In this document: positions 1,176 through 62,203 of the stretch, one piece after another
Position numbering within the stretch: the first letter of the stretch is position 1
Layout: each line of letters starts with the position of its first letter
From: an uncultured Pontibacter sp.
GTDB taxonomy: Bacteria > Bacteroidota > Bacteroidia > Cytophagales > Hymenobacteraceae
Length of the DNA stretch: 64,000 nucleotides
Direction: 5' to 3'
Assembly (NCBI RefSeq): GCF_947495565.1
Contig: NZ_CANLZM010000003.1
Coordinates: 310,001-374,000, forward strand
Made by a program: the position numbers and the translations under genes
The notes under the pieces: model-generated
What the model was told of the DNA's origin: nothing
The model's input: only the letters and a program-made list of their open reading frames with translations
Databases searched by the model: none

Positions 1176-2270
1176 CTATGCTAAACCCTCTAACTCCCGC
1201 AGCTTTTCTAGCAGTTTCTTCACTTGCTCCATAGTATGCGCCGGAAAGTTGGCAATACGGATCTGACTCTCTTTATACTTACCGTAGCCACTGCCTACCT
1301 GCAAATCATACTTGGCTAAGTGCTTGTTTACTTCAGAGGCTGGAATAGTGGTGTTGGCTACAATAGTGGTTTTAGAGCAATGCTCCGGTTTCTGCACGGC
1401 TGGCAAAAAGATACTGCTCTGCTCCAGAAAAGCGTATACTGCTGCTGCCTTGGCCTCTGTCTCCTGCCGGATAGTAGCAATGCCAATGCGGTTCATGTCC
1501 TCCAGTACTTTGCCCAGCAAGTATATATTGAGCACGTTCGGAGTTTCTACGGTCTGGTTTTGCAGAGCCTTCTCCTGGAGCGAGGGTAACGTATGGTAAG
1601 AGCCGATAGAAATGCCGCTCTCCTGCATATCTCGGGCTTTGGCCATGCAGCGGTCGTTTACAAGCCATACGCCCAAACCCGCCGGTAAGCCGAAGCACTT
1701 CTGCACCGAAAAGTAAACTGAGTCGACCTTAGAATAATCGAATGCAGGGTAGGGGAGCGATGATACGGCATCCACATAAATAAGCGCATCCGCCGGTGAT
1801 TTTCCCCTGAATCTGCTGATATCCTCCACCGGAAGGCAAGCGCCTGAGCTTGTCTCGTTCTGGATCAGGGCCACTAACTCCGCCGTTTCCGGCACATGTA
1901 TACTTTCCAGCTCAAAGCCTTGGCTAAACGGCACCTCGTGCTGCTGCGCCTCACGGCCCAGTTCCTGCGCCATCTCATAAAATCGCTTCGAGAAAGAGCC
2001 GTTTACCAAATGGAAGCTCTCCCGGCGCACGTTGTTCTGCATAGCCCGCTCCCAAACCTCCGTAGCCGACGACACAAAGAATACTTCATACTCATCCGGC
2101 AACTGCAACAACTCGCGCAGTCCGCTTTCCGCACTAGCGTAAATCTCCTGAAACTGCTTGCTGCGGTGCGAAATGCTCCCGATTTTCTGGGCCATTGCTT
2201 CCTGCAGGTGCTGCGGCACAGTGGGGTAAAGCTCCGATGGGCCAGGGGTAAAGTATACTTTGTTGTTCAT
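1176..2270 (-). CDS. serC: Phosphoserine aminotransferase-like class V aminotransferase
   Basis: PLP-dependent aminotransferase of 364 residues that probably converts 3-phosphohydroxypyruvate to phosphoserine. Visible features are the N-terminal FTPGPSEL motif, H35-R36 in SHRSK, D167 in YVDAVSS (which would pair with the PLP ring nitrogen), and K191 in SVQKCFG as the Schiff-base lysine. It lies 119 bases downstream of the SerB-SerA fusion on the same strand. Together the two genes would supply all three steps of the phosphorylated serine pathway. The sequence is closer to the atypical SerC and alanine-glyoxylate aminotransferase group than to E. coli SerC, so the role rests partly on context. 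The start region carries a full AAGTATACTT palindrome at 2251-2260, inside the first codons. Confidence 0.85.
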   Translation of the reverse strand: MNNKVYFTPGPSELYPTVPQHLQEAMAQKIGSISHRSKQFQEIYASAESGLRELLQLPDEYEVFFVSSATEVWERAMQNNVRRESFHLVNGSFSKRFYEMAQELGREAQQHEVPFSQGFELESIHVPETAELVALIQNETSSGACLPVEDISRFRGKSPADALIYVDAVSSLPYPAFDYSKVDSVYFSVQKCFGLPAGLGVWLVNDRCMAKARDMQESGISIGSYHTLPSLQEKALQNQTVETPNVLNIYLLGKVLEDMNRIGIATIRQETEAKAAAVYAFLEQSSIFLPAVQKPEHCSKTTIVANTTIPASEVNKHLAKYDLQVGSGYGKYKESQIRIANFPAHTMEQVKKLLEKLRELEGLA

Positions 2271-2389
2271 GGCTACTGCTAAAGTATGATGTTATGGCTT
2301 AGGCTGATTTTTTACTTATGAAAGGTTTTCCTTTTCCGGAAAGATGGTAAAGCTGCTTGTTCAAAGTATAAAATCAACCTGAATTAACT

Positions 2390-4282
2390 CTAATATAGTA
2401 TGCGGAATTTGATAGTGTGCGGCACCTGCCTCATGTCACCTACTACTTGCTTGTCGTAAGCCTTATCAATGTCAGTGATTACGTAGCCTACATGTTCGTT
2501 TGTTTTGAGGTACTGGCCCAAGATGTTTACCTGGTTTTTGGCAAGCACCTGGTTGATGTTTGCCAGCACACCCGGCACGTTGGCATGTATGTGTATGAGA
2601 CGGTGTGCGTTCTTCAGCTCCGGCAGCTGCAGGTTCGGGAAGTTTACGCTGCCGTAGGTATTGCCCGAGTTGATATAGTCCATGATACGGTTCGGAACAA
2701 AATTGGCGATGTTAACCTGCGCCTCCGATGTGCTGCCCCCAACATGCGGCGTTAGTATGACATTGGGCAATCCGCACAATTCGCTCTCAAACGGGTCGCT
2801 GTTGGTGGCAGGCTCCTCAGGAAACACATCCGCGCCCACACCGCTTATCTTACCTGATTTCATACTTTGCACCAGCGCCTCGATATCCACCACATGGCCC
2901 CGGCTCAGGTTCAGGAAGATGGCGCCGTCTTTCATAGCGGCAAATTCTGCTGCCCCAAACATGTTTTTGTTTTCTGGGCGGCCATCCACGTGCAGTGTTA
3001 CGATATCGGCTTTCTCCAGTAGCTCGCGCAGGGTGCTGCACTTGCGGGCATTACCTAACTGTAGCTTCTCTACCACATCGTAATAATATACTTCCATGCC
3101 CATGGCCTCCGCTAGCACCGATAACTGCGCCCCGATATTGCCATAGCCCACAATACCTAGTTTTTTGTCGCGCACCTCAAAGCTGCCTTTTGCCGATTTA
3201 TCCCACTGGCCCAGGTGCATTTTACTGCTCTTGTCCACTACGCCGCGGCTCAGCATGATAATCTCGCCCAAAGCCAGCTCCACCACACTTCTGGTGTTGC
3301 TATAAGGAGCATTGAAAACCGTAATACCGGCCTCCAGACAGGCATCTAAATCAATCTGGTTTGTGCCGATGCAGAAGGCGCCCACGCACATCAGGCGGTT
3401 GGCATGCTCCAGCACCTTACGCGTTAAGTGGGTTTTGCTTCTGATACCAAGTATAGACACGTTCTTGATCTTCTCGCACAACTCGTCCTCATCCAGGGCT
3501 CCGCTGATGGTCTCTACCTGATAGCCTTCTCTGCGGAACAGCTCAACAGCCTGCGGATGCACATTTTCGAGCAGCAGCACGCTGATGCGGTTTTTAGGAT
3601 ATGATATGGCCATGGGTAATTTATTTTGATACAGGAATTCGTCGAGGCTTGGGGCAATATGTTCTGCTTTAGCCACTACACTCTCGCGGGCCACGTTTTC
3701 TGTGAACGCGTAAAATTTATTTGCCAGTCCGGCTTCTTTTATCTCATAATCGGTGTAGCCGTCGCCCAGCACGTAAACATCGCCAGGCAAGGCCAAATGT
3801 TCCAGCAGTTTAATCTTGCCTTTATCCAGGCTCAGCAGGTTTGCTTCATCAAAACCAACTAAATTGCCCTGCTCGTCTACCTCAAACGTATTGGCGTAGA
3901 TATTCTCCTCCTTAATGCCATACTCTGTTACAATAGGGACAATAAATTCTTTGAACCCGCTGGAGATAATAAATATCTGGTCGGCGTAGGCTTGCAGAAA
4001 ATCGCGGTTGCGGCGGATGGACTCTGATACTTTGTCTTTAAGCGTGCTGATGAGCTGCGGCAGGTGGTTTTGGTGTGCCTGCAGGAGGTTAAGGCGCTGC
4101 GTCAGCCCCTCCGAGAAGGAGCTTTGGCCGGCCATGGCACTGTCGGTAATCTGCTTTACCTGTTCCAGTATGTGTTCGCGTTCCGGGTGGTTTTGGAGCG
4201 AAATAGCCCCCAGTTCATCTAGTGCCTCAACTTGTGTAAAGGTGCTGTCAAAATCAATGATGAAGTATTTATCCTTACTCAT
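2390..4282 (-). CDS. serA: Phosphoserine phosphatase-phosphoglycerate dehydrogenase fusion
   Basis: Two enzymes of serine synthesis in one 630-residue chain. Residues 1-215 are a HAD phosphatase: D10 and D12 in DFDST (motif I), S107 in ISSG (motif II), and GDGYTD at 173-178 (motif IV). Residues 230-545 are a D-3-phosphoglycerate dehydrogenase: NAD-binding GYGNIG at 379-384, R461 in NLSRGH, and H513 in TPHVGG. Residues 555-630 form an ACT domain, the usual site of serine feedback. The enzyme would catalyse the first and last pathway steps, with the SerC-like protein encoded next to it doing the middle one. The fusion is in frame with no sign of a broken junction. A terminator for bshA separates it from the upstream gene. 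Confidence 0.92.
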   Translation of the reverse strand: MSKDKYFIIDFDSTFTQVEALDELGAISLQNHPEREHILEQVKQITDSAMAGQSSFSEGLTQRLNLLQAHQNHLPQLISTLKDKVSESIRRNRDFLQAYADQIFIISSGFKEFIVPIVTEYGIKEENIYANTFEVDEQGNLVGFDEANLLSLDKGKIKLLEHLALPGDVYVLGDGYTDYEIKEAGLANKFYAFTENVARESVVAKAEHIAPSLDEFLYQNKLPMAISYPKNRISVLLLENVHPQAVELFRREGYQVETISGALDEDELCEKIKNVSILGIRSKTHLTRKVLEHANRLMCVGAFCIGTNQIDLDACLEAGITVFNAPYSNTRSVVELALGEIIMLSRGVVDKSSKMHLGQWDKSAKGSFEVRDKKLGIVGYGNIGAQLSVLAEAMGMEVYYYDVVEKLQLGNARKCSTLRELLEKADIVTLHVDGRPENKNMFGAAEFAAMKDGAIFLNLSRGHVVDIEALVQSMKSGKISGVGADVFPEEPATNSDPFESELCGLPNVILTPHVGGSTSEAQVNIANFVPNRIMDYINSGNTYGSVNFPNLQLPELKNAHRLIHIHANVPGVLANINQVLAKNQVNILGQYLKTNEHVGYVITDIDKAYDKQVVGDMRQVPHTIKFRILY

Positions 4283-4335
4283 AAATACAAATAGCTTAAA
4301 AAGGCTTAAGGAGAGATTAAGCTTGTAAGGTATAA

Positions 4336-4374
4336 AAAAAGAACCGACCTTGCAGCAGCAGGCCGGTTCTTTTT
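4336..4374 (-). terminator. Intrinsic terminator downstream of bshA
   Basis: Inverted repeat with arms 4336-4350 and 4360-4374 (core GAACCG/CGGTTC, one mismatch) flanked by A and T runs on both sides. It lies just after the bshA stop codon and before the SerB-SerA start, so it should end bshA transcription on the minus strand. Confidence 0.8.
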
Positions 4375-4403
4375 GAAATTAAGCTTTTGTAGCGTGTAAG
4401 CCT

Positions 4404-5540
4404 TTATAGTATTGCCAGTTGCTCATCTATAATGCGCTGATAGAAACGCTCGTAAATAGGTACGATCTTCTTGATGTCGAAGTCCTTGGCGCGTATTAGG
4501 GCGTTGGCTTTAAATTTTGGAAGGTTTTCATCGTCTAATATGTGGAGGGCGTTTTCAACCATCTCATCCACAGCACCTACAGGGCTTGCAAAACCTGTTA
4601 CGCCGTTAATGTTAAGCTCCGGTATACCGCCTGCGTTAGAGGAAACAACCGGCACCTCGCAAGACATGGCCTCTAAGGCTGCCAGACCGAAGCTTTCTTT
4701 TTCAGATGGCATCAGGAAGAGGTCGGCAATAGAGAGCACCTCCTCCACAGCCTCCAGCTTGCCTAAAAAGCGCACATCCTGGCAAATTTGCAGCTCGCGG
4801 CATAGCTTCTCCATTTTAGGGCGCTCGGGGCCATCGCCTACCAGCAGCAGGCGGCTCGGTATTTTGCTGTGTACTTTTGCAAAAATCCGGATTACATCTT
4901 CCACACGCTTCACTCCTCTGAAGTTGGAGGTATGCACCAGTAATTTCTCGTTGCTTGCTGCTATAGCAGTGCGGAAATGCTCTTTTTTCTGCCGCTTAAA
5001 CTTCTCCAGGTCTATAAAGTTGGGGATAACCTCAATGTCTTTCTCAATCTGGAAAAAATCGTAGGTTTCGGAGCGTAAGCTATCGGAAACCGCCGTTACG
5101 CCATCAGACTGGTTTATGCTGAAGGTAACCACCGGCTCAAAAGAGGCGTCTTTGCCTACCAGCGTAATGTCCGTGCCGTGCAGCGTGGTGATAATAGGGA
5201 TGTTGATGCCCTTTGTGCGCAGAATTTGCTTGGCCATGTAAGCCGCCGAAGCATGCGGGATAGCGTAATGCACGTGCAGCACGTCCAGCTTCTCGAACCG
5301 CACAATATCTACCATCTTGCTTGCCAGCGCCAACTCATAAGGCGGGTACTGAAACAGCGGGTAGGTAGGGATGTATACTTCGTGATAGAAAAGATTCTCG
5401 TTGAAAACATCGAGGCGGGCAGGCTGGCTGTAGGTAATGAAATGTACTTTGTGGCCCTTCAGGGCAAGTTCTTTACCAAGCTCAGTGGCTACCACGCCAC
5501 TGCCGCCAAAAGTAGGGTAACAGACTATACCGATTCTCAT
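4404..5540 (-). CDS. bshA: N-acetyl-alpha-D-glucosaminyl L-malate synthase BshA
   Basis: GT4 glycosyltransferase that joins UDP-GlcNAc and L-malate in the first step of bacillithiol synthesis, in the cytoplasm. The 378-residue product begins with the family signature MRIGIVCYPTFGGSGVVATELG. It has the acceptor-site segment HVHYAIPHASAAY, the LHGTDIT motif, and the C-terminal donor-site motif PSEKESFGLAALEAMSCEVPV with the E-x7-E arrangement of GT4 enzymes. The length is typical. It is 73 bases downstream of the GH3/serine-hydrolase gene on the same strand and is probably cotranscribed. The start has the recurring ACT-ATG context. bshB and bshC are not in this window. Confidence 0.95.
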   Translation of the reverse strand: MRIGIVCYPTFGGSGVVATELGKELALKGHKVHFITYSQPARLDVFNENLFYHEVYIPTYPLFQYPPYELALASKMVDIVRFEKLDVLHVHYAIPHASAAYMAKQILRTKGINIPIITTLHGTDITLVGKDASFEPVVTFSINQSDGVTAVSDSLRSETYDFFQIEKDIEVIPNFIDLEKFKRQKKEHFRTAIAASNEKLLVHTSNFRGVKRVEDVIRIFAKVHSKIPSRLLLVGDGPERPKMEKLCRELQICQDVRFLGKLEAVEEVLSIADLFLMPSEKESFGLAALEAMSCEVPVVSSNAGGIPELNINGVTGFASPVGAVDEMVENALHILDDENLPKFKANALIRAKDFDIKKIVPIYERFYQRIIDEQLAIL

Positions 5541-5613
5541 AGTTCAGGATGTATGGCAAAACAACAAGTGCAGCCCCTTTTTGTTGCTGCACTCGCTAAA
5601 CTACTGATTTTTT

Positions 5614-8562
5614 TTATGTTTTAGGCACCATCGCCTTGTAGATCACATCATGTATTCTGGTACGGATGTTATACTTTACAAGCTTGTTATTGCTGGCATC
5701 CGGGTATACCCGGTTAGACAGGAAGATGTAGATCAGCTTGTTCTCTGGGTCTGACCAGGCGGCTGTTCCGGTAAAGCCGGTGTGCCCAAACGTACTCTGC
5801 GAGGCTAAGCTTGATGTTGGCCCATTGCCGTCTGGGGCGGGTTTGTCCCAGCCTAAACCACGGCGGCTGGTGTCGAACTGCCGCGTTGCAAACTCATACA
5901 CGACATCAGAAGTATAGTATCTGTGGCCGCCGTAGTTGCCGTTGTTCATGTTCATCTGCATGAGTATGGCCAGGTCGTTGGCATTGGAGAACAAACCCGC
6001 GTGACCTGCCACACCGCCCATCATGGCGGCACCCTGATCATGCACCGTACCGCGAATCAGGTTTTTACGGAAGTAATTGTCGTCTTCTGTCGGAGCGATG
6101 ATTTCGCGCGGGTGTCTAAGCAGCGGTGTATAGGTTAGCGTGCTAAGGCCAAGCGGAGCATAAAAGTTCTGGTCCAGGAACTCCTCAATAGGCTGGTTTA
6201 GCATGGTTTCTGCCACCCGCTTCATAATATAGAAACCAAGGTCGCTGTAGGCATAGTTGTAAGTACCGCTTTTTTGCTTGGGTAGCAGCGGCGTCTTCAC
6301 CGTCCAGGACCAAAGCGAGTCTTCCATGGAGTTTATGGAGTATACGCCCGGTATCACCTCGTTCATGTACATGTCGTTTTGTGTGCTGGCGTAGAAGGTT
6401 TGCTTCAGTTTGCGGTTGTCTATCGTTTTCTGCCAGGTAGGGATACCAGGTTTCAGGCCGGCCTGGTGCGCCAGGATATCACGCATTTTAAGGTTGGCTT
6501 TGTTCGTGCCTTTTACTTCAGGCAGGTAAGTGGCCAGGTTCTCGTCCAGATTAATTTTGCCCTGATCTTTCAGAAACATGATTGCCTGCAGGGTAGCGGC
6601 CACCTTAGTGATAGAGGCAATATCGTAAATGGTGTTTTTGGTTACGGGCTTAACCGCATCGTAAGTATAGTGCCCGTAGGTTTTATTGTACACCACAGTA
6701 CCATCTTTTACCACCAGCACCTGCATACCTGGCGTAGCGGCATAAGTAATAGCCTCTGTGGCAATGTTGTCAATCTGAGCAAGTGTGTTGGAGTCCATGC
6801 CCACACTTTCCGGAACGCCATACTTCAGGCGGCCTAACGTAGCGGTAGGCAGGCCTGTGCCAGCAGTATACTTCGCGGAGGCCGAGATAGGTAGCTTGCC
6901 TTGTGCGGCACGGGCACCAAACAGCACCTGCGGCACCAAGGATTGCGACACAGGATTGTCTTCGTAGCCGCTTACCAGCCACTCATTGCCCTCAAAAAGT
7001 TTCAGGCTATAGGCGTTGCCCATCACGGCCACCACTACTTTTTTGTTGGTGCGCTCGCGCAGGTACTGGATAAAAGCGAGTGTGCCTGTTCCGATGCCAA
7101 AGTTTTTGGCAGGCGTGTTGTTCATGCCATGGATGCTTACCACCACCACATTGTTATGCTGCAGTTGCGGTATAATGTTGGTAAAGGCAGAATCAGGGGC
7201 GTAGCGGTTCGGAATGCTGAAACGGTTAACAGGTGCATAATTGGCCATTGCCTCCTGAAAAGTATTATCCGCTGAAGTGCCTATGGCCACAGAGGCAATG
7301 CTGAGCGTATCCAGGTTGCGGAAAGGAATAAGGTTGCTTTTGTTTTCTACTACCGTAACAGCATGCTCGTAAAGTTGCTCCTGAATCACTCGGCTGGTTG
7401 GGCGGTCAATCTCTTCCTGCAGGTTCTCCAGCTTTACTGGTTTATACTTGTTTAAGCCGGCCCAGTACTTAGCGTGCAGGATTTTTCGCACCCGCTGGTC
7501 TATTTCAGCTTGGGTAATCTGTCCTTTTTTTACAGCTTTTGATATTTTATCTACGGCAGTGGGAACATCTTCCGGAAACAGAAGTACGTCATTACCAGCT
7601 AGTAGCGCTTTTAAGTCTACCTCGCCTGGTTTATAGTAGCGGCTAACGCCCTGCATATTTAAGGCATCGGTAAAAACAAGGCCTCTATACTTCATCTTAT
7701 CTTTTAAGAGCCCGGTAACTATGGGTTTAGAAAGCGTGGCAGCCTGGTTTTTGGTGGAGTCTACGGAAGGCAAGTATAAATGCGCCACCATCACACCCAT
7801 TACACCGGCATCGAAAGACTGCTTAAACGGGTATAGCTCCACATCTGTCAGGCGCTGCATGTTGTGCTGGATAACAGGAAGGTTGTAGTGGGAATCGGTA
7901 TCGGTGTCTCCGTGTCCGGGAAAGTGCTTGGCCACAGCCATCACACCATGGTCTTGTAAACCACGGATATAGGCGATGCCATACCTGCTCACAATTTCTT
8001 TAGTCTCCCCAAAGGAGCGGGTACCGATAACAGGATTGTTAGCATTGTTGTTTACGTCCAGAACCGGGGAGAAGCTCACGTTCACGCCAAGGCGCTTCAT
8101 CTTCAAAGCAATCTCACGGGCCATTAAGTATACATAGCGGTCGTCATGCATGGCTCCGAGCGTCATCTGGCGGGCAAAGTGCATGCTGCTGTCCAGACGC
8201 ATGTTCAGGCCCCATTCAGCATCCATGGCCACTAAAAGCGGTACTTTAGCCTGGCTTTGGAAGCGGTTGGTAAGCTTGGCCTGGCGCATAGGTCCGCCTT
8301 GCATAAACATAATGCCGCCAATGCCATACTGGCCCACCAGCGAGTCTATCTCACTTATGTGCTGCTGATTTTTGTTGGAGTAGGCGGCCACCATAAACAG
8401 CTGGCCAATGCGTTGTGAAGGAGTAAGCGAGGTCATCACACTGTCGACCCATTGCTGTTCCCGAGGGGGCGCAATAATCTCCTCTGATGGATTAAATGAC
8501 ATCAGGGGCCCCATGACAAGGAAAACAAGAATCAACACACCTACACTAAAACTCTTCAACAT
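5614..8562 (-). CDS. GH3 beta-N-acetylglucosaminidase-like/serine hydrolase fusion, exported
   Basis: Exported 982-residue protein with two catalytic domains. An N-terminal signal segment (about 1-22) is followed by a glycoside hydrolase family 3 domain of NagZ type, with KHFPGHGDTDTDSH at 212-225 and a probable nucleophile D299 in FTDALNM. The C-terminal region from about 590 is a class C beta-lactamase/DD-peptidase-like hydrolase, with S650-I-T-K653, Y772-S-D774 in the YxN position, and an HTG motif near 930. Such fusions occur in Bacteroidota and are thought to act on peptidoglycan fragments in the periplasm. The substrate here is an inference. It is the first gene of a two-gene unit with bshA. 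A TAATTTTG box lies 30 bases upstream of the start. Confidence 0.9.
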   Translation of the reverse strand: MLKSFSVGVLILVFLVMGPLMSFNPSEEIIAPPREQQWVDSVMTSLTPSQRIGQLFMVAAYSNKNQQHISEIDSLVGQYGIGGIMFMQGGPMRQAKLTNRFQSQAKVPLLVAMDAEWGLNMRLDSSMHFARQMTLGAMHDDRYVYLMAREIALKMKRLGVNVSFSPVLDVNNNANNPVIGTRSFGETKEIVSRYGIAYIRGLQDHGVMAVAKHFPGHGDTDTDSHYNLPVIQHNMQRLTDVELYPFKQSFDAGVMGVMVAHLYLPSVDSTKNQAATLSKPIVTGLLKDKMKYRGLVFTDALNMQGVSRYYKPGEVDLKALLAGNDVLLFPEDVPTAVDKISKAVKKGQITQAEIDQRVRKILHAKYWAGLNKYKPVKLENLQEEIDRPTSRVIQEQLYEHAVTVVENKSNLIPFRNLDTLSIASVAIGTSADNTFQEAMANYAPVNRFSIPNRYAPDSAFTNIIPQLQHNNVVVVSIHGMNNTPAKNFGIGTGTLAFIQYLRERTNKKVVVAVMGNAYSLKLFEGNEWLVSGYEDNPVSQSLVPQVLFGARAAQGKLPISASAKYTAGTGLPTATLGRLKYGVPESVGMDSNTLAQIDNIATEAITYAATPGMQVLVVKDGTVVYNKTYGHYTYDAVKPVTKNTIYDIASITKVAATLQAIMFLKDQGKINLDENLATYLPEVKGTNKANLKMRDILAHQAGLKPGIPTWQKTIDNRKLKQTFYASTQNDMYMNEVIPGVYSINSMEDSLWSWTVKTPLLPKQKSGTYNYAYSDLGFYIMKRVAETMLNQPIEEFLDQNFYAPLGLSTLTYTPLLRHPREIIAPTEDDNYFRKNLIRGTVHDQGAAMMGGVAGHAGLFSNANDLAILMQMNMNNGNYGGHRYYTSDVVYEFATRQFDTSRRGLGWDKPAPDGNGPTSSLASQSTFGHTGFTGTAAWSDPENKLIYIFLSNRVYPDASNNKLVKYNIRTRIHDVIYKAMVPKT

Positions 8563-17180: not shown

Positions 17181-18512
17181 CTATGCGATGCTTTTTAGCG
17201 AAATCTCCACCACCCGCTCAGTCTTTTCATTTACTTTAAAGCGGTTATCCAGGCGCTGGCCCACTACCCAGGCAATAGACTGGTCAGAGACTAATACAAG
17301 CGTTTGGCCCTTTAGGTTGGCGGGTACTTTCTTATCGATCAGTAAATCGCTGATTTTTTTCTTACCGTTCATGCCCAGCGGCACAAACCAGTCGCCCTCC
17401 TGCCAACTGCGCAGCTTCAGGGGGAACCTCAGCTGATCGGCATCCAGGGCAGCCACGTATGGTTTTGTGTTGAGTTTATACTTGTCGGCATCAATGTATT
17501 TAATGCTGAAAGTATGGTTTCCGGCTTCAACTTCCGTGTCGCCTTCCTGTATAAGTATACTTCCGAAGCTGCTTAGGTTACGCAGTGTAATTACCAGCTG
17601 GTCGCGGTCTTTTACCAGCGTATGGCTCGGCGAGTCGAACTGCTTGCCCGAAATACCCTCCAGCGCCTCCACCAGCTCCAGCACCACACTATAGCTGAAG
17701 TTGAAAGGCCGCAGCAGCTCGTGCAGCACCACCGGCAGGCCCGTCACGTTCTGCAGCGGCACCAGCGAGATGTAGGTGGCATTCTCATACTCTTTTACAC
17801 TTTGCTCGCGCAGGTTCTCAATGTAAGCGGCTACAATGCTTTCGGCATGGCTTACACGCTCGGCGGTGTGCTGCATGGTTTCCTCCAGGCTCGGGTTTAT
17901 CTCCTTCAGCACCGGAATCACCTCGTGGCGTATTTTGTTGCGCTGGTACTTGGTGGTTTCGTTAGAGCTGTCTTCGCGCCAGATGATCTTGCGCTCCGTC
18001 ACGTACTCGTAAATATCGTCTTTGGTAACCGCAAGCATGGGGCGGATAATGTGGCCGTTCTTGGCCGGAATGCCGTGCAGACCCGCAATGCCGGTGCCTT
18101 TGGTCAGGTGTAGCAATATGGTTTCGGTCAGGTCGTTACTGTGGTGGGCTGTGGCAATATACTGATAGCCTTCCTGTTGGCGCACCTGCTCAAACCACTG
18201 GTAGCGCAGGGTGCGGGCAGCCATTTGGGTTGATAGCTTCTCCTGCTCGGCAAAGGCACGGGTGGCGAAGTTTTCGGTAAAGAACGGCACATCATACTTT
18301 TTGGCCAGTTTTTTGACGAACAGTTGGTCGGCTTCGGCATCCTCGGCGCGCAGCCCGAAATTGCAGTGCGCCACCGCAAAGTCATACTTAAGCTGGTGCA
18401 GTATTTCGCAGAGCACCGCTGAGTCGATGCCGCCGCTAACGGCTGCTAAAATTTTATCCGTAGGCGCACAAAGGCCTTGCGATTGTATGAAACCTGAAAC
18501 TTTCTGTAGCAT
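17181..18512 (-). CDS. tilS: tRNA(Ile)-lysidine synthase
   Basis: ATP-dependent enzyme that converts C34 of tRNA-Ile(CAU) to lysidine so that it reads AUA. The 443-residue product has the PP-loop SGGIDS at 26-31, followed by the N-type PPase fold (HCNFGLRAEDAEADQ, ATAHHSNDLTETILL). A middle helical domain comes next, then a C-terminal substrate-recognition domain (RSWQEGDWFVPLGMNGKKKISDLL). AUA codons are common in this window because the abundant AAGTATA motif often places ATA in frame, so demand for TilS should be high. It is divergent from the OstA-like gene upstream. Confidence 0.96.
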   Translation of the reverse strand: MLQKVSGFIQSQGLCAPTDKILAAVSGGIDSAVLCEILHQLKYDFAVAHCNFGLRAEDAEADQLFVKKLAKKYDVPFFTENFATRAFAEQEKLSTQMAARTLRYQWFEQVRQQEGYQYIATAHHSNDLTETILLHLTKGTGIAGLHGIPAKNGHIIRPMLAVTKDDIYEYVTERKIIWREDSSNETTKYQRNKIRHEVIPVLKEINPSLEETMQHTAERVSHAESIVAAYIENLREQSVKEYENATYISLVPLQNVTGLPVVLHELLRPFNFSYSVVLELVEALEGISGKQFDSPSHTLVKDRDQLVITLRNLSSFGSILIQEGDTEVEAGNHTFSIKYIDADKYKLNTKPYVAALDADQLRFPLKLRSWQEGDWFVPLGMNGKKKISDLLIDKKVPANLKGQTLVLVSDQSIAWVVGQRLDNRFKVNEKTERVVEISLKSIA

Positions 18513-24557: not shown

Positions 24558-26255
24558 ATGCTGATAGATCTTAAAATAAAGAATTACGCCCTGATCGAGA
24601 AACTGGAGATGAATCCGTCGCCGGTGCTCAACATTATTACGGGCGAGACAGGTGCCGGTAAGTCCATTATGCTGGGCGCTATTGGTCTGCTGCTGGGCAA
24701 CCGCGCCGATACCAAGCTGCTCTTTAACCAAGCGGAAAAGTGTGTGATTGAGGGCGTGTTCGATATCTCGAGCTATAACCTGCAGGAGCTTTTTACTAAG
24801 GAGGATCTGGATTTTGATAACCAGTGCATTCTGCGCCGCGAGATCAGCCCGAGCGGCAAGAGCCGTGCCTTTGTGAACGACACGCCGGTAACGCTGGACG
24901 TAATCCGCAAAATAGGTGAGAACCTGATGGATATTCACTCGCAGCACGATACACTGCAGCTCGGCGACACCAGCTATCAGCTAAACATCCTGGATATTTA
25001 TGCAGGCAATACGTCCTCTATGGGCAATACTACTTTCGATATTTATGCCGGAAATCTATCGTACCTGCGCAAGTATAACGAGAGCTACCGCCAGTACAAG
25101 AAGCTGGAAAGTGATTATAAAAAGCTGACCGACCAACTGGCGCAGGCGCAGAAGGAGCACGATTACCATGCCTTTTTGCTGAACGAACTGGACGAGGCTG
25201 GCCTGCAGCAGAACGAGCAGGAGGAGCTGGAGGGAGAGCTAAAGCAGTTGGAAAACGCTGAGGACATCAAACTAAAGCTGACGCAGGCAGTACAGAGTCT
25301 TACAGAATCGGAGTTTAACATCACTTCTGCACTAAAAGACACTGTGCATACATTAAGCCAACTGTCGGCTTTCTCTACTAAGTATGAGGAGCTTCGCAGC
25401 CGCACCGAAAGCTGCATGATAGAGCTGAACGACATTGCCGGAGAACTGGAGGACGCCGACCGCAACACCGAAGCCGATCCGGAGCGCACGCTGGAGGTAC
25501 AGGAGCGCCTGAACCTGATTTATACTTTGCAGCGCAAGCACCAGGTACATAGCAATGCAGAGCTACTGCAAATTCAGCGGGAACTGGAGGAGAAGGTTGG
25601 CAGCGTACTTAACCTGGACACCGCTATCACCAACACTGAAAAGGCCATGAAGGCCGCAGAGCAGGAGGTGCTGGAGAAGGCAGCCATACTTTCGGAGCGC
25701 CGGAAAGCATCATTCTGCACTTTTGAGGAAGAACTGTACAAGTTGCTGGCGGAGCTGGGCATGCCGAACGCTCGCATCGTAATTCAGCACAACGAGGTAA
25801 CGCCATCGGCAACCGGTACCGATGATATAAGTATACTTTTCAGCGCCAACAAAGGTGCGCAGCCGCAGTCGCTGATCAAGGCCGCCTCGGGTGGTGAGTT
25901 CTCTCGCCTGATGCTAAGTATAAAGTATATGCTGGCCGACAAAACTGCCTTGCCAACCATCGTTTTCGACGAGATAGATACAGGTATTTCCGGAGAGGTG
26001 GCCGTGAAGGTAGGCAAAATGATGCAGCAGATGGCGCAGAAGCACCAGATTATTGCTATTTCGCACTTGCCACAAATAGCGGCACAAGGCAACTCGCATT
26101 ACTTTGTGTACAAGCACGACACGGAAGACCGCACCATCAGCCGGGTGAAGAAGCTGGATAATCAGGAGCGCATCAACGAGATTGCCCACATGATTGCCGG
26201 TGCCAACCCAAGCGATAATGCCTATCAAAGTGCCAAAGAGTTGCTTTCACTCTAA
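24558..26255 (+). CDS. recN: DNA repair protein RecN
   Basis: SMC-like ATPase of double-strand break repair. The 565-residue product has the Walker A motif GETGAGKS at 29-36 and a long central coiled coil (about 155-380, rich in Glu, Leu and Gln). At the C-terminal end are the signature ASGGEFSRLMLSIK, the Walker B VFDEIDTGISG and the ISHLPQIAAQG motif. Length is typical. A full AAGTATACTT palindrome lies inside the gene at 25829-25838, and two further copies follow at 25916-25930. It is preceded by the repeat region and followed after 80 bases by fabI. Confidence 0.96.
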   Translation: MLIDLKIKNYALIEKLEMNPSPVLNIITGETGAGKSIMLGAIGLLLGNRADTKLLFNQAEKCVIEGVFDISSYNLQELFTKEDLDFDNQCILRREISPSGKSRAFVNDTPVTLDVIRKIGENLMDIHSQHDTLQLGDTSYQLNILDIYAGNTSSMGNTTFDIYAGNLSYLRKYNESYRQYKKLESDYKKLTDQLAQAQKEHDYHAFLLNELDEAGLQQNEQEELEGELKQLENAEDIKLKLTQAVQSLTESEFNITSALKDTVHTLSQLSAFSTKYEELRSRTESCMIELNDIAGELEDADRNTEADPERTLEVQERLNLIYTLQRKHQVHSNAELLQIQRELEEKVGSVLNLDTAITNTEKAMKAAEQEVLEKAAILSERRKASFCTFEEELYKLLAELGMPNARIVIQHNEVTPSATGTDDISILFSANKGAQPQSLIKAASGGEFSRLMLSIKYMLADKTALPTIVFDEIDTGISGEVAVKVGKMMQQMAQKHQIIAISHLPQIAAQGNSHYFVYKHDTEDRTISRVKKLDNQERINEIAHMIAGANPSDNAYQSAKELLSL

Positions 26256-33135: not shown

Positions 33136-36100
33136 ATGAGTAAACATTTACAAAAGCTAGGAGCTCTTGTAGCGGGCTTTGCTATGCTTGGCAGTACACA
33201 AGTGCTGGGGCAGGCTTCCGTTAATTCCCTCCCTTACAACCAGAATTTTGACGGCATGACTACCTCGTTACCTGCCGGATGGAATGCTGTTCGTTTCTCA
33301 GGTAGTGGCACAGCAGGAGCAGAACTGACTCCCAAGCAGTCAGATGGATCAGACAACTCTGGATCTGTATATAGCGTAGGTTCGTCTAACAGTTCAGACC
33401 GTGCCTTGGCTACGCTAGCCTCTGGATCGACTGTTCCTCGCTTTGGAGCCAGCTTTATTAATAATACTGGTGCTGCTTTAGCAGGAGTTAAATTAACTGG
33501 CGTAGCAGAACAATGGAGAAGTGGCAGTAGTAGCGATGTGAATGAGGTGGTTGTTTTCGAATACAGCCTGAATGCGTCTTCTATCAATGACGAGACAGCT
33601 ACATGGGTGCCTGTGCCTGCACTAAATCTAATTGAGATATTAACAACATCATCAACAGCTGAAGGAGTTGATGGCAATGTAAATAAAACCAGTATTGCCG
33701 CAAGTCTGGCAGGCGTTACCTGGAATGAAGGTATTACTCTCTGGATCCGTTGGACTGATGCTAATGATGGAGGAAGTGATGGTATGTATGCGTTGGATGA
33801 TTTTTCAATTACATCTAGCGACGAGCCGATTCCCGTAGACGAAACAGCGCCAGCAGTGGTAAGCCTTTCTCCGGTAAATGGCGGCGAAGGTGTATCGGTT
33901 AACAGTAAACTGTTGCTCACGTTCGACGAAGCTGTAGTGGCAGACGCGGTAGGCGTTATCATTATCACCAACGTAACAGCTGGTACTACTACCCAAATAG
34001 CTGCCAATGATGCTGATAAAGTAAGTATAAATGGCGGAGCCGTTACCGTTAATTATACTTTAGCACCAGAAACCAGCTATAGTATAGCCCTGGCAGCAAA
34101 TTCTTTTAAAGATGCAGCCGGTAATTCTACAGCTGAAATAGCAGCCGGCAACTGGGCTTTCACAACGCAAGGAGTAGGGATGCCTGTGGCTGATAGCTAC
34201 TTTGAGAGTTTTGACAACTGCTCTCCGGATGCCAGCACAACGCTATCAGGCAACTGGATGCACTACAGCGTAACCGGATCTGAGACGTGGGCTTGTACCC
34301 AGTATGGCGCTGACAACTCTTTCGGTGTGCAGATGAACGGCTACAACGGCGGCGTAAAAGTAAACGAAGACTGGCTGATCTCTCCTGCCTATAACCTGCA
34401 GGGCCTTGAGCTGCCGGCAATGTCAGTAAATTACGCAACCAAATACAGCGGCGCTGCGCTGCAGGTAAAGGTATCAACAAACTACAGCGGCACCGGCGAC
34501 CCATCAGCGGCCACCTGGACAGAGCTGCTGACGCTTCCGTCGGACAACACGGATACCTGGAAACTGCTGCAGAACATCAACCTGACAGCTTATAAATCAG
34601 AAGGTACGCACATTGCCTTTGTATACTTTTCTGACAGCGATGCCGGTGCTTCTCGTTGGACGCTGGACAATTTCAAAATAGAAAATGCTTCCACAATATT
34701 CTCTGTGGATGAGCTGAATATCAACTTTGGCCTTGTGGCGGTTGGTAACACATCAGAGGCGCAGGAGTTTACTTTTAACGCCATTGGCTATGCGCAGGAG
34801 GTGGTGCTTACCGCTCCGGCCAGCTTCGAGCTGTCCAAAGACAACGTTGCCTTCCAGCAGAGCCTGTCTTATACTGCTGAGGAGGCTGCAGCCCAAAACA
34901 AAGTATACGTGCGCTTTAAACCGTCTTCGGCGGCAGTGTTTGCAGGTGCTATTACCTTTACCAGCGGCAACGAGCTGAACAAGGAGCACGGTATGCTGCA
35001 GGGTTCGGCATTAAGCTACGACAACACATTGGATATTGCCACCTGGAACCTGGAGTGGTTTGGCTCCACCAGCAATGGGCCGAGCAACGAGGCATTGCAG
35101 TACGAAAACGCTAAACAAGGCATAACTGCGTTGAACGCTGATATAATTGCGGTGCAGGAGATTGTAGACGTTAACCTAATCAAGCAACTGGCAGAGGAGC
35201 TTGGCTATAAGTATGAGGATATGGATACGGAGTGGCTCTACAGCAACTCACAGCGCACCGGAGTACTTTACAGGCCAGAGATACTTACTGTAAGAAAAGA
35301 GAAAACGCTGCTTTCTAAATTGTATGCTGATATCAAAGCCGGTAGAACAACATTGCCAGGGTATCCTTCTAGTAGCTCAACTTTCTGGGCAAGCGGCCGT
35401 CTGCCGTACCTGGTGCAGTTCGAAACCAACATCAACGGAGTTCGCCAGTACATCAACGTAGTTAACATACATGCCAAAGCCAACAGCGGCGATGACATTA
35501 CGCAGTACGACAGACGCAAGTATGATGTGCAGGTGCTGAAAGACTCGCTTGATGCCCAGTACGGCAACACCAACCTGGTTATGCTCGGCGACTTCAATGA
35601 TGATATTGACGAATCTGTAGTGGCCGGTGCCGGCCCGTCGTCTTACAAAGTTTTTGTGGACGATAGCAACTACAAAGCCCTCACCTATGAGCTGAGCTTG
35701 ACAGGGGCTTACAACCTGGTTGGCTCGTATAAGAGCTTCCTGGATCACATCCTGATTTCGCAGAGCCTGGAGGATGAGTACATTGCTAACTCAATTGTTA
35801 TCCGTAACGATTTCCTGAACAGCATTGCTAACTATGGCAGCACCACGTCAGACCACTTGCCGGTAATGGCCCGCTTCCAGCTGGTGACCAACGACCCTGA
35901 GCAGGAAACGCCAACTGGCATTGCTGATGCCACTAAAGGCCAGTTTAGTGTGTATCCTAACCCGGTGCAGAACTTTGTGAGACTGTCGTTGCCGGAGCGT
36001 GTGCGCGGCTTCAAGAACATCGCCTTGGTTGCTTATGGCATAGATGGGCGTGTGCTGTTTACAGCAAACGGTTCTCAGGAGGGTGTGCAGCAGGTGCTGA

Positions 36101-36192
36101 GCGCTGAGGCTGCTACATTAAAGCAAGGTATGTATATCCTGAAAATTGAGGCTGGTAAAGAGGTATTTGTAACCCGAATGCTGAAAAAGTAA
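33136..36192 (+). CDS. Secreted endonuclease/exonuclease/phosphatase-fold protein with T9SS sorting domain
   Basis: Secreted 1018-residue protein. A signal peptide (1-26) is followed by a choice-of-anchor-type beta domain, an Ig-like domain (about 233-340, starting VDETAPAVVSLSPVNGG), another beta-sandwich (about 350-515), and a connecting Ig-like domain. An endonuclease/exonuclease/phosphatase catalytic domain starts at about residue 630 with WNLEWFG and continues with QEIVD, NIHAKA, GDFNDD (about 817) and SDHLPV (about 904). The last 80 residues are a type A type IX secretion sorting domain (VYPNPVQ...GMYILKIEAGKEVFVTRM). The protein is expected on the cell surface or outside the cell, degrading nucleic acids or phosphoesters. 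The precise substrate is not shown. Confidence 0.92.
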   Translation: MSKHLQKLGALVAGFAMLGSTQVLGQASVNSLPYNQNFDGMTTSLPAGWNAVRFSGSGTAGAELTPKQSDGSDNSGSVYSVGSSNSSDRALATLASGSTVPRFGASFINNTGAALAGVKLTGVAEQWRSGSSSDVNEVVVFEYSLNASSINDETATWVPVPALNLIEILTTSSTAEGVDGNVNKTSIAASLAGVTWNEGITLWIRWTDANDGGSDGMYALDDFSITSSDEPIPVDETAPAVVSLSPVNGGEGVSVNSKLLLTFDEAVVADAVGVIIITNVTAGTTTQIAANDADKVSINGGAVTVNYTLAPETSYSIALAANSFKDAAGNSTAEIAAGNWAFTTQGVGMPVADSYFESFDNCSPDASTTLSGNWMHYSVTGSETWACTQYGADNSFGVQMNGYNGGVKVNEDWLISPAYNLQGLELPAMSVNYATKYSGAALQVKVSTNYSGTGDPSAATWTELLTLPSDNTDTWKLLQNINLTAYKSEGTHIAFVYFSDSDAGASRWTLDNFKIENASTIFSVDELNINFGLVAVGNTSEAQEFTFNAIGYAQEVVLTAPASFELSKDNVAFQQSLSYTAEEAAAQNKVYVRFKPSSAAVFAGAITFTSGNELNKEHGMLQGSALSYDNTLDIATWNLEWFGSTSNGPSNEALQYENAKQGITALNADIIAVQEIVDVNLIKQLAEELGYKYEDMDTEWLYSNSQRTGVLYRPEILTVRKEKTLLSKLYADIKAGRTTLPGYPSSSSTFWASGRLPYLVQFETNINGVRQYINVVNIHAKANSGDDITQYDRRKYDVQVLKDSLDAQYGNTNLVMLGDFNDDIDESVVAGAGPSSYKVFVDDSNYKALTYELSLTGAYNLVGSYKSFLDHILISQSLEDEYIANSIVIRNDFLNSIANYGSTTSDHLPVMARFQLVTNDPEQETPTGIADATKGQFSVYPNPVQNFVRLSLPERVRGFKNIALVAYGIDGRVLFTANGSQEGVQQVLSAEAATLKQGMYILKIEAGKEVFVTRMLKK

Positions 36193-53613: not shown

Positions 53614-53636
53614 TTCCAGATCTGCCACATTCATAC

Positions 53637-54434: not shown

Positions 54435-54530
54435 TTTGTCAGTTCTCAGTTACAAATTCAAAATCTTGAAGTAAAGGAAGTTCTTGTTTGGCTGCCGTGT
54501 ATCTCTTAATATACTACGGCTGGAAAAACA

Positions 54531-54567
54531 AAACCTCACAGGCCTTAAAAAGCGCGCTGTGAGGTTT
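54531..54567 (-). terminator. Terminator downstream of the M42 peptidase
   Basis: AAACCTCACAG (54531-54541) pairs with CTGTGAGGTTT (54557-54567). On the minus strand a T-rich tail follows. Confidence 0.85.
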
Positions 54568-54598
54568 GCATATACTTGGCTAAAAGTATTATTCTAGA

Positions 54599-55669: not shown

Positions 55670-55779
55670 ATGCTGCTAATTATGAATTAGAAATTAAAAA
55701 TCATGATTCTGAAGAAATCAGAAAAAGCTTTTAAAGTATACGGGCCGTTTCTGATTTCTAATTCTGAATCTATAATTTT

Positions 55780-57339
<1,560 letters not shown>

Positions 57340-58757: not shown

Positions 58758-58907
58758 ACTTTTAAGTGTTGATTGCTTATTGCTGGGCTTCTATAAAAGG
58801 TAATCGCATAGAATATCTTACATGCCGTTGCCCTCACCATAGTATCAATTACACAGCGGGTATATTTATCAAACAATCAACAATCCAACAATTTAACCAT
58901 TAAACCA

Positions 58908-59318: not shown

Positions 59319-60292
59319 TGAGGCTGAACCAGCAATACCTGAAGCGCCGCCGCGCCTATCGCAAGTTCATCGTTTTCCTGAAACGATGGCGGTTTAACAG
59401 TGGCAGGTCTTCGGTGTATGATGTGGCCGATGTGCTGATAGGGGAGCTGCGCCTGGACTCCATCACCAAGCGGGCTTCTTACATGGCCTTCAACTTTACG
59501 CTGGCAACCTTTCCTACCATCATCTTCCTTTTCACGCTCATCCCGTACATTCCCAGCATTCTTTCGCTGGATCTGGGGGAGAGCATCCTGGACTTCCTGG
59601 CAGACTTTATGCCCGAGGAGATGTATACGGTAACCTATAGCACCATTGAGGACATCGTAAACAAGCCGCGCGGTGGTTTGCTTTCTTTCGGTTTTCTATT
59701 TGCGCTGGTGCTGTCCACCAACGGCATTATGTCGCTGATGGATGCTTTCGATAAGAAATACCATACTTTTTATAAGCGTACCTACCTCCGCAAACGTATG
59801 ATCGCCACCATCCTGACGGTTGTGCTCAGTTTGATTCTGCTTACAGCCGTGGCGGCTATCTTCTTCGGGCAGTGGATTCTGGATGTGCTGGTGTTCTATG
59901 AAATCGTAACCGAAAGCTATACTTATACTTTGCTGGTGGTGCTGAAGTATATCGCCATCATTATGCTGTTTCTGCTGGCCACCTCGCTTATTTATTACTT
60001 TGTGCCTGCCATTGAGGATAAGTGGCCGTTTTTTTCTGCGGGAGCCGTGGTGGCTACAGGGCTTATCTTTCTGGTTTCGATGGGCTTTTCGCTCTACATC
60101 AGCGCTTTCGATACCTATAACAAGTTTTACGGGTCCATCGGAGCCCTTATCGGTTTGATGATCTGGCTCGATTTTGTTTCCATGATCCTCATACTTGGCT
60201 TCGAAATAAACGTCAGCATCGATACCGTGACAAAACGCTTGGTGCGCATACCCACATCGCATTCGGGTAAAATGGCAAGAGCTAAAGTATAG
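59318..60292 (+). CDS. YihY/BrkB-family membrane protein
   Basis: Integral membrane protein of 324 residues with six hydrophobic segments (RASYMAFNFTLATFPTIIFLF, GFLFALVLSTNGIMSLMDAF, TILTVVLSLILLTAV and others) and the YihY core. It is encoded in a one-base overlap with the thioesterase. The family has been called ribonuclease BN or virulence factor BrkB, but the nuclease function is not supported. The mechanism is unknown. The C-terminal end is basic. Confidence 0.88.
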   Translation: MRLNQQYLKRRRAYRKFIVFLKRWRFNSGRSSVYDVADVLIGELRLDSITKRASYMAFNFTLATFPTIIFLFTLIPYIPSILSLDLGESILDFLADFMPEEMYTVTYSTIEDIVNKPRGGLLSFGFLFALVLSTNGIMSLMDAFDKKYHTFYKRTYLRKRMIATILTVVLSLILLTAVAAIFFGQWILDVLVFYEIVTESYTYTLLVVLKYIAIIMLFLLATSLIYYFVPAIEDKWPFFSAGAVVATGLIFLVSMGFSLYISAFDTYNKFYGSIGALIGLMIWLDFVSMILILGFEINVSIDTVTKRLVRIPTSHSGKMARAKV

Positions 60293-60376
60293 CTTTTATA
60301 CTATACCTTTTAGGGTTTTATACTTACCTTGGGTATGGCTGCTGCGTGTAAGCGGTGGCTGCAAACCGGATAATAT

Positions 60377-62203
60377 ATGGCCTTCTTCAAAAACATATCT
60401 CTCCAAAACCTGTGGCAGGGTGCCGCAAGTACATTTCTGCGCTTCCCGCTGGTGCTCTTGTCTGCTTTTGTGGGTACGGCTGCGGCTATTTACCAAGTCG
60501 GGTTAGAGTATGAGCAGCGGGAGCAAAACCTGTGGCTGACCAAAATCATACTTGTAAGCGTACTCGGCCTTATCCTGTTCTTTACGCTGGAGTTGCTCGG
60601 GCGTAAGTATAAATGGGCGCAGCCACTGCGTTGGCTGAGTTGGGTCGGCGGATTGGCCTTTTTAACGATCTACTACTGGCTGCTTCCGGAGTACCTGGAG
60701 CAGCGGCACTACCAGCGCCTGTTTGCGTTGTTGCTGGTGCTGCACCTGGCTGCCTCCTATGCCATGTTTGCAAACCGACGGATAGAGAATGCGTTTTGGC
60801 AGTTCAATAAAAACCTCTTCCTGCGCATTCTCACCGCTGTGCTTTATTCCGGGGTGCTTTACTTGGGTTTAGTGGTAGCCATCGTGGCACTTGACCAGCT
60901 TTTCTCTATGGATATTGATGGTGAAGTGTACGGGCAGCTTTGGTTCTTTATGGTGGGGGTGTTTAATACCTGGTTTTTCTTGGCAGGTGTACCAACCAAC
61001 GTAGCCGAACTGGAGCAGGCGCATACTTACCCGAAAAGTCTCAAAGTTTTTACGCAGTTCGTGCTGCTGCCGCTCGTTACTGTTTACCTGCTTATTTTGT
61101 ATGCATACCTGGGTAAAATCATTGTGCAGTGGGAATGGCCGGAAGGCTGGGTGTCGGTGCTGGTGCTGTGTTTTTCTATTGCCGGTATCCTGTCGCTGCT
61201 GCTCATTTACCCTATCCGCAACGAGGAGGGCAACACCTGGATACGAACCTTCTCGAAGTGGTATTTCCGTGCGCTGTTCCCGTTGATAATCCTGCTAGGG
61301 CTGGCCATTTGGCGGCGCGTGACGGAGTATGGCATCACAGAGGAGCGTTATATTGTGCTGGCATTGGCTCTTTGGCTCTTCTTAACTGCTTTATACTTTC
61401 TTTTTAGCAAGGCCAAGAATATCAAGTTTATACCTGTTACTTTAAGTATAATTGCGTTGGTAGCCGCTTTTGGGCCGGTAAATATGTTTAAGGTGTCGGA
61501 GTGGAGCCAGGTAAGACGCCTGCGCACGCTGCTTTTACAGGAAGGCATACTTGTGGATGGCAAGATTAAGCCGATGGCGGAAAAAGTAACCGAAGAGTCG
61601 CTGGTAGAGGTGAGCGCTATTACTGACTATCTGGCCCGCCACCACGGCTTTGAAGAAATAGAAGATTGGTTTACCTCTGATTTAAGCGAGGTTGCTGAAG
61701 TTGATAGCTCCGGGAAATGGGATGTGTGGCAAAGGCCAACCAACATGCGAAACGCTGTGCTTGCACAGATGGGTCTGGAGTATACCCTAAATGTAAAAAT
61801 TGATTCCGAATTATACTTTGGATACAGGCTTAACGATTACATTGCCTACAGCCAAGTATTTGCCATAGCCGGTTATGATTATGCTGTGGAAGCCGCTTTT
61901 CATAAAGACTTGCAAAAGCAGGAACTGAAGTTAGGTGCTACCCCGCTCGTGCTCACTTTAGAAAAAGAAGTACTTTTTATTGCCTTGGAAAAGGAAACAC
62001 TGCAGCTTGATTTAGCACCGATCATTAAAAAATTAGCCGAGACAGAAAGAATCAGCAGCAACCAGCAAGAACTGACTTATACTTTAGCAGGGCAGGAGGC
62101 AGAGGTCAAAATCATACTTAAAGAACTGATCGGGAATAAGCGAAAAGCCGGCAATGAAATACAAAACCTGGAGGTTTTACTTTTAATTAGCCTGAATCAG
62201 TAA
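60377..62203 (+). CDS. DUF4153-family multi-pass membrane protein
   Basis: Integral membrane protein of 608 residues. The first two-thirds hold about 10-12 hydrophobic segments, and the last 200 residues are soluble with mixed alpha/beta character. The pattern (start MAFFKNISLQNLWQGAASTFLRFPLVLL) matches the DUF4153 family. The function is unknown. It follows the BrkB-like gene by 84 bases on the same strand and is probably part of the same unit. The last AAGTATA/TATACTT motif of the window (near 62080) lies inside it. Confidence 0.85.
   Translation: MAFFKNISLQNLWQGAASTFLRFPLVLLSAFVGTAAAIYQVGLEYEQREQNLWLTKIILVSVLGLILFFTLELLGRKYKWAQPLRWLSWVGGLAFLTIYYWLLPEYLEQRHYQRLFALLLVLHLAASYAMFANRRIENAFWQFNKNLFLRILTAVLYSGVLYLGLVVAIVALDQLFSMDIDGEVYGQLWFFMVGVFNTWFFLAGVPTNVAELEQAHTYPKSLKVFTQFVLLPLVTVYLLILYAYLGKIIVQWEWPEGWVSVLVLCFSIAGILSLLLIYPIRNEEGNTWIRTFSKWYFRALFPLIILLGLAIWRRVTEYGITEERYIVLALALWLFLTALYFLFSKAKNIKFIPVTLSIIALVAAFGPVNMFKVSEWSQVRRLRTLLLQEGILVDGKIKPMAEKVTEESLVEVSAITDYLARHHGFEEIEDWFTSDLSEVAEVDSSGKWDVWQRPTNMRNAVLAQMGLEYTLNVKIDSELYFGYRLNDYIAYSQVFAIAGYDYAVEAAFHKDLQKQELKLGATPLVLTLEKEVLFIALEKETLQLDLAPIIKKLAETERISSNQQELTYTLAGQEAEVKIILKELIGNKRKAGNEIQNLEVLLLISLNQ

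Follow-up and report, generated by a model that had tools for sequence, protein, structure and literature searches.

AAGTATR, an asymmetric word of seven to nine bases, is strongly over-represented on both strands of a 64-kb stretch of the genome of an uncultured Pontibacter sp. (contig NZ_CANLZM010000003.1, positions 310,001 to 374,000; hereafter the window). We have found that this over-representation is real and that it exceeds what was first noted, as it belongs to a genus-wide, dialect-forming DNA word that resembles a self mark. By analogy with known systems, there is about an even chance that the word works like a DNA uptake sequence, that is, as a tag that owes its spread to biased DNA uptake and recombination. 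An earlier note on the window had counted about 125 copies of AAGTATA (about 70 forward and 55 reverse) where some 8 were expected, or one per 500 bases; the exact figure is 127 (71 and 56) at an order-0 expectation of 8.7. AAGTATG was also raised (57 observed vs 8.3 expected) and neither AAGTATC (7 vs 8.3) nor AAGTATT (15 vs 8.7) was in excess, and thus the last base is R and the word is AAGTATR (the A word; its reverse-strand copies read TATACTT on the forward strand).

In the 53 open reading frames (ORFs) called in the window (simple longest-ORF calls, made with no gene finder), 92 copies of AAGTATA were observed vs a mean of 13.0 in 300 synonymous-codon shuffles (standard deviation 3.6, maximum 27, z 22), and the 8.46 kb of intergenic DNA held 34 copies vs 2.3 under an order-1 Markov model (z 21). 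Over 424 kb of this genome 809 copies were present vs an order-1 expectation of 50.4, a 16-fold excess. In 427 kb, 557 copies were fully coding, 244 fully non-coding and 9 on edges, as compared to 58.2 coding and 23.0 non-coding copies per anagram, a roughly 10-fold excess in either class. The earlier note had proposed a genome-wide count, together with a comparison with relatives, a look for depletion in mobile elements and a search for a cognate uptake or DNA-binding protein. Genome-wide, AAGTATAA occurs 4542 times (2246 + 2296) vs 159 (79 + 80) for the reversed word, and the palindrome AAGTATACTT 213 times vs once for its reversed control. As to the suggestion that the word forces rare codons, ATA is not especially rare in the window ORFs, where it accounts for 302 of the 1101 Ile codons (27 of the 302 lie inside words), but of 111 Ile-Leu pairs 28 are spelled ATA-CTT, and of 81 Ser-Ile pairs 19 are spelled AGT-ATA. 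Action on the word as DNA, and not on codons, is supported by the codon shuffles, by the similar coding and non-coding excess, and by the above-control conservation and the scarcity beside relaxases described below. An artefact of codon usage or base composition, or a family of dispersed repeats, has a negligible chance of being the explanation. The word is indeed AT-rich and favors certain dipeptides, but both z scores speak against such an artefact, as do relatives of like composition that are without the word; the signal is lost outside the stretch from -1 to about +3, and no larger repeat was seen.

Beyond the seven bases, information was carried by an A at -1 and at +2, by A, C or G (seldom T) at +1 and, to a small degree, by position +3, and flanks scanned to 40 bp gave no further information and no periodic AT tracts. 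Of the A-rich or T-rich flanks described earlier, an A-rich stretch from -1 to about +3 was thus recovered, with nothing periodic within 40 bp. One-mismatch neighbors of the word were slightly raised, with a mean of about 1.8 over 21 ratios, the highest being A to G at the last place (6.5); GTAT is the strict part of the word and its edges are tolerant. No spacing between close word pairs in this genome stood out except that of the palindrome. In 340 kb throughout which GC skew is positive, 347 forward and 301 reverse copies were counted, which amounts to almost no polarity. The guide words of FtsK (FtsK orienting polar sequences, KOPS) are polar along the replichore, and this count speaks against such a role. 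The earlier note had left the choice between an uptake motif and a chromosome-maintenance motif. The uptake type fits better, given the near absence of polarity and the clade-wise spelling, and the maintenance type fits worse.

Comparisons with other genomes, at loci fetched via recN, showed how far the word extends. In a first survey of the RecN-flank loci of 80 named genomes, the AAGTATA word was found in 12 Pontibacter and was not present in Adhaeribacter, Rufibacter or Hymenobacter, relatives of like composition. The full sample comprised 32 Pontibacter-group genomes and two outgroups. Among the 32, AAGTATR (dialect A) was carried by 13, cAGGTATAG (dialect B) by 11, which form one clade, and GGTATR (dialect C) by one; three had a weak word (P. 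diazotrophicus, P. pamirensis and P. harenae) and four at most a residue, and GTATR was common to all dialects. The B word was found by scanning word-poor Pontibacter, where AGGTATA(G) reached 423 vs 14 expected in 11 species; in a larger sample of the B species P. ramchanderi, AGGTATA was seen 384 times vs 13.9 and AGGTATAG 205 times vs 3.6. In P. sp. E15-1, the bearer of dialect C, GGTATAC (72 vs 6.6), GGTATAA (72 vs 8.1) and CCATACC (84 vs 11.6) were in excess. Around GTATA, dialect A has A at -2 and -1, dialect B has A then G before it, C or G after it and C next, and dialect C has mainly G at -1. Genome-wide, AAGTATAA numbered 3552-7030 in the 13 A genomes (controls 80-189), 276-453 in the 11 B genomes (controls 108-188) and 260-1201 in the remaining eight of the group (controls 124-336), and was at control level in the two outgroups. 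No strong form was seen in P. ummariensis, P. silvestris, P. beigongshangensis and Botryobacter ruber, in each of which the A and B words were at most about three times expectation; their residual counts of AAGTATAA over control were 509/138, 688/336, 260/204 and 308/193, respectively. In 345 other genomes of the class, a sample holding no other members of the genus, the largest such ratio read was about 2.4. Two of these residue species had excesses of other kinds: GAGGTAGA and GAGTTAGA types in Botryobacter ruber (24 vs 1.7 and 20 vs 2.0 in 117 kb), possibly a dispersed repeat, and the palindrome CTCCGGAG in P. beigongshangensis (32 vs 2.8 in 122 kb).

In a protein tree built from seven genes (23 rows, 4146 columns, with long outgroup rows), the A species fell on several separate branches and the B species in one fully supported clade, which grouped with the A species P. 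vulgaris and P. ruber, and E15-1 paired with P. diazotrophicus. A dialect label with five states required a minimum of eight changes on this tree. Three gene-subset trees had the same outline (8, 8 and 7 changes), differing in the deep forks and in the placement of P. ummariensis, which lay beside this genome's group on addAB, near E15-1 and P. diazotrophicus on the comEC-region genes, and near the B clade on RecN. The nesting of P. ummariensis among the A species in the seven-gene tree is owed to addAB, as the subset trees show; these conflicting placements could reflect transfer of addAB or of other genes. On the simplest reading, A is an early word of the genus that was respelled once as B and once as C, and that was lost or weakened several times.

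The placement of addAB bears on a Chi-like role, in which AddAB would stop degrading at the word, word-bearing fragments would recombine more, and changes in AddAB would give the dialects. An AddB-like nuclease (PF12705) was indeed found in all 34 genomes, and an adjacent helicase-like protein, taken as AddA from its position and N-terminus, in all 19 Pontibacter-group regions fetched; furthermore, a drive based on recombination need not yield strand polarity. Chi sites are strongly strand-biased, however, and almost no bias was found here. Nor does AddAB relatedness seem to follow the word, as AddAB of P. ummariensis, with its residual word, is 86-89% identical to that of this genome, AddAB of P. 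vulgaris, P. arcticus and P. ruber, which kept the A word, is 73-81% identical, and that of the B clade is 72-80% identical, about as diverged as in distant A species. The argument from P. ummariensis is weakened by the conflict among the trees, as its addAB may be a late arrival. We regard a Chi-like role as quite improbable.

Conservation and respelling of the word were examined in aligned orthologous DNA of the RecN and comEC regions, with all anagrams pooled as controls. In three sets AAGTATA was kept in 629 of 1215 comparisons (52% vs 34% for the pooled anagrams), 577 of 1285 (45% vs 23%) and 847 of 2105 (40% vs 22%), and AGGTATA was kept within B at 2706 of 4360 (62% vs 34%). Sites with the A word in A species read AGGTATA in B species in 487 of 4993 cases (9.8% vs 2.75% for controls) and still AAGTATA in 461 (9.2%), control words being kept at 10.1%. 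In the other direction, B sites read AAGTATA in A species in 529 of 4084 cases (13.0% vs 3.5%, a rate matched by one of 59 controls) and still AGGTATA in 301 (7.4%; controls 15.1%). One-mismatch differences occurred at all seven positions, and the share of transitions was below that of controls, leaving relatively more transversions, so that a single biased mismatch-repair reaction is not suggested.

This last result bears on a mechanism like that of the cyanobacterial highly iterated palindrome (HIP1), in which a solitary methyltransferase would modify the word, methyl-dependent mismatch repair or selection would accumulate it, and a change of methylase would change the word. Variants of the cyanobacterial words are reported to occur together with cognate methylases, and their core to be the part least often altered (PMC4390886); in Pontibacter, too, the core GTAT is strict and the spelling switches by clade. 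Our word is also like HIP1 and its variants in being very dense, genome-wide and spelled by lineage. The HIP words are palindromic and tied to methylases, however, whereas the core here is asymmetric, which makes HIP1 a weaker analogue. The Eco57I-type methylases (PF07669), the methylase family searched for, could in principle recognize an asymmetric site, but their occurrence is patchy and shows no relation to the word. Together with the transversion-rich differences at all seven positions, this makes a methylase-driven origin unlikely.

Depletion of the word in mobile elements was found as anticipated. Relaxases were located at 28 places in 16 of the 24 word-bearing genomes, and 20 of these places were examined. 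In A species, 13 of 14 relaxase neighborhoods held 0-13 words per 20 kb and one held 36; in B species, five of six held 1-4 and one held 18. Words were thus scarce (0-13 per 20 kb) around 18 of the 20 relaxases, vs 30-48 in core 20-kb pieces of this genome, and in both exceptions the bins at the relaxase itself were empty or nearly so. Two relaxase regions held the word of the other dialect: that of P. mangrovi (A) had nine AGGTATA, the B word, and that of P. sp. BT731 (B) nine AAGTATA, the A word, the reversed control of the home word being seen once in each, as if these stretches had come from a relative of the other dialect. An abundant nucleoid or chromosome-organizing protein, whose binding site was kept by weak selection, would agree with a density of about two per kb on both strands, in and between genes, and with the conservation between species. 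Thousands of positions would each have to be held by weak selection, several species live almost without the word, and neither the scarcity beside relaxases nor the clade-wise rewriting is specifically predicted, and we consider this explanation improbable.

We return to the uptake reading, which links these observations by a known process. Uptake drive carries an asymmetric word, on either strand, into coding and non-coding DNA alike, with a spelling that can change with the receptor. In Pontibacter, a DNA-binding receptor of a pilus-free natural-transformation route would prefer fragments with the word, and recombination of such fragments would replace word-less alleles, so that copies would build up wherever the sequence tolerates them, on both strands, in and between genes. 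Elements arriving by conjugation would stay without this build-up. A shift in how the receptor reads the flanks of the constant GTATR core would lead to old words being rewritten in place, AAGTATA to AGGTATAG, and words would decay once the preference was lost. As no reader protein was found, we infer this mechanism, and with it uptake as the driving step, the competence of these species, and the receptor, both that it exists and what kind of protein it is. The more specific proposal is that Pontibacter has a pilus-free, sequence-specific uptake in which an outer-membrane or surface receptor reads GTATR and its flanks, giving a genus-wide self mark with at least three dialects, invented independently outside the Neisseriaceae and Pasteurellaceae; this we put forward tentatively, as somewhat short of an even chance.

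The type IV pilus motor (PF00437) was not found in the 32 Pontibacter-group genomes, where the best matches were partial and reached at most 25.3 bits (pilins were not searched for). Two of the 32 exceeded the cut-off of 24.9 bits, with matches that covered about 60 of the 370 positions in frames of 648 residues, as compared to 419 bits in Adhaeribacter soli. According to the report of a transposon screen in Riemerella anatipestifer, of the same phylum (PMC8459023), eight genes were essential for transformation, with no pilus gene among those it lists; they encode ComEC, DprA, ComF and RecA and four proteins described there as having no counterparts in known machinery, namely an HHH protein, a DUF5689 protein, an outer-membrane protein with a carboxypeptidase regulatory domain and a DUF1343 protein. 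It was also reported that R. columbina prefers its own DNA, with no motif identified in the excerpted text (PMC7965970). ComEC, DprA and a ComEA-like HHH protein (HHH_3; 304-346 residues, about 315) were each present in all 34 of our genomes. In P. sp. HSC-14F20 stops were seen within the comEC and dprA frames, though its RecN region carries the B word; they are either draft errors or a recent loss.

Several results weigh against uptake. The comEC, dprA and HHH genes are found just as regularly in outgroups and in species poor in the word, and do not follow it; if uptake is at work, a separate reader must therefore exist. No gene that tracks the word was seen among the neighbors of comEC (20 genomes), addAB (20) or the HHH gene (10), DUF5689 was rejected as reader because it was present in 12 of 34 genomes with no relation to the word, and no receptor was found in a search that did not extend to ComF, RecA, DUF1343 and the carboxypeptidase-regulatory-domain protein. 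No report of competence in Pontibacter was found among the 10 papers listed of 1060. DNA uptake sequences and uptake signal sequences are spaced more evenly than random; here the intervals (mean 517 bp) were distributed nearly geometrically, except that those shorter than 80 bp were in excess (160 observed vs 113 expected). Scarcity beside relaxases is also expected from any slow chromosomal process. The species comparisons share history and are not independent, the rate of A-to-B respelling was matched by 7 of 59 controls, and 9 of 103, 1 of 104, 2 of 104 and 4 of 208 anagrams were conserved as well as the word or better, some of them perhaps owing this to overlap with it.

The search for a cognate uptake or DNA-binding protein thus ended with no reader among the genes searched. 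The candidates that did not follow the word were PF00437, ComEC, DUF5689, DprA, AddB (PF12705), the Eco57I methylases and HHH_3. A further candidate lay in the window itself, at 33136-36192, where a diverging secreted protein combines Big_5, choice-of-anchor J, endonuclease/exonuclease/phosphatase and type IX secretion system sorting domains, and has the choice-of-anchor J label in common with a transformation protein of Riemerella. It was rejected as reader, as Rufibacter has matches too, the P. cellulosilyticus copy matches at the ends only and none was seen in the P. mucosus and P. chinhatensis flanks. The copies in P. cellulosilyticus and P. aydingkolensis match at two ends only, without the nuclease part.

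Like the DNA uptake sequences (DUS) of Neisseriaceae, the Pontibacter word is short and asymmetric, has thousands of copies on both strands, is both genic and intergenic, and comes in clade dialects built on a common core, CTG in Neisseriaceae and GTATR in Pontibacter. It differs in phylum and in the word itself, and no pilus motor was found here, hence no ComP-type pilin system. In the excerpted description of DUS (PMC3630211), eight dialects around the CTG core are distributed in line with the core-genome phylogeny. Like the uptake signal sequences (USS) of Pasteurellaceae, our word has an asymmetric core, tolerates some mismatches and diverges in specificity by lineage. Periodic AT tracts mark the USS flank and are not seen here. 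The proposed USS receptor, ComN, is a pilin (PMC12616744, as excerpted), part of a system whose motor was not found in Pontibacter. Chi and KOPS are likewise genome-wide asymmetric words, from which ours differs in its near lack of strand polarity and, for Chi, apparently in the relatedness of AddAB. We do not file the word as a DUS or USS, since no pilus motor was found and uptake is proposed here from sequence. To our knowledge, uptake-sequence dialects have been described only in two proteobacterial families, each with a reported or proposed pilin receptor; the open-access papers listed in our searches mentioned neither this word nor any uptake sequence of Pontibacter. The dialects offer a genetic handle: a reader gene would be expected to be shared by the A, B and C species, to differ from one dialect to the next, and to be lost or damaged in the residue species (P. 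ummariensis, P. silvestris, P. beigongshangensis and Botryobacter). Dialects and losses together serve as replicates of the origin, switching and decay of a word, and bear on the choice between uptake drive, methylation and a chromosome function.

Within the window, the word-bearing core segment spans 535-62084. The 71 forward AAGTATA (1519-61450) start at 1519, 2251, 2364, 3449, 5910, 6663, 7772, 8126, 8903, 10395, 11480, 12298, 12751, 12821, 12858, 14057, 14196, 14386, 15849, 15869, 15880, 15941, 16219, 16238, 17553, 18546, 19508, 20441, 21160, 21549, 23922, 23969, 24082, 24311, 24340, 25071, 25829, 25916, 25923, 27475, 27747, 31660, 34023, 34901, 36302, 37059, 37652, 38324, 42060, 44896, 44975, 45138, 46403, 46452, 47599, 49476, 50132, 51437, 51907, 52201, 52475, 53075, 53820, 54113, 55734, 57841, 58548, 59945, 60285, 60605 and 61444. 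The 56 reverse copies (535-62084, TATACTT on the forward strand) start at 535, 1274, 1899, 2254, 3087, 5374, 5670, 6867, 7443, 7686, 10382, 10960, 11724, 12273, 13337, 15038, 15125, 15369, 17477, 17556, 19940, 23672, 23947, 25521, 25832, 27273, 27356, 31625, 34054, 34622, 38761, 41666, 41780, 43309, 43569, 45009, 46499, 47177, 48161, 49119, 49463, 49546, 51849, 53564, 53638, 53745, 53988, 54571, 56368, 57539, 59918, 59924, 60319, 61392, 61812 and 62078. The three full palindromes AAGTATACTT reported earlier were recovered exactly, at 2251-2260, 17553-17562 and 25829-25838, the last within recN (24558-26255, forward strand; TIGR00634, 446 bits). This gene holds six word starts (25071, 25521, 25829, 25832, 25916 and 25923), and its product is 97% identical to RecN of P. 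mangrovi. With this identity and a protein ending in a type IX secretion tail, the window is a piece of Pontibacter chromosome (Bacteroidota, Cytophagales, Hymenobacteraceae).

The extent given earlier, 1260 to 62090, needs small corrections at both ends, as one copy lies before it, at 535, and the last copy is at 62078-62084. As had been claimed, the window is word-free from 62085 to its end, including the integrase region; from 62084 to the end of the contig (1.9 kb of window and 2.94 kb beyond, about 4.9 kb) a single copy was found, beyond the window. At this word-free edge lie a tRNA-Ser(TGA) predicted by ARAGORN (62321-62406, forward strand), which may serve as an attachment site, and a tyrosine integrase (62657-63871, forward strand; PF17293, PF13102, PF00589), with no word in the gene or from there to the window end. 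The next 2,940 nt past the window hold, near the contig end, a second ORF (positions 385-1839 of these 2,940 nt) that is recombinase-like as judged from its sequence. Together, the tRNA-Ser, the integrase and this second ORF probably form a tRNA-anchored island.

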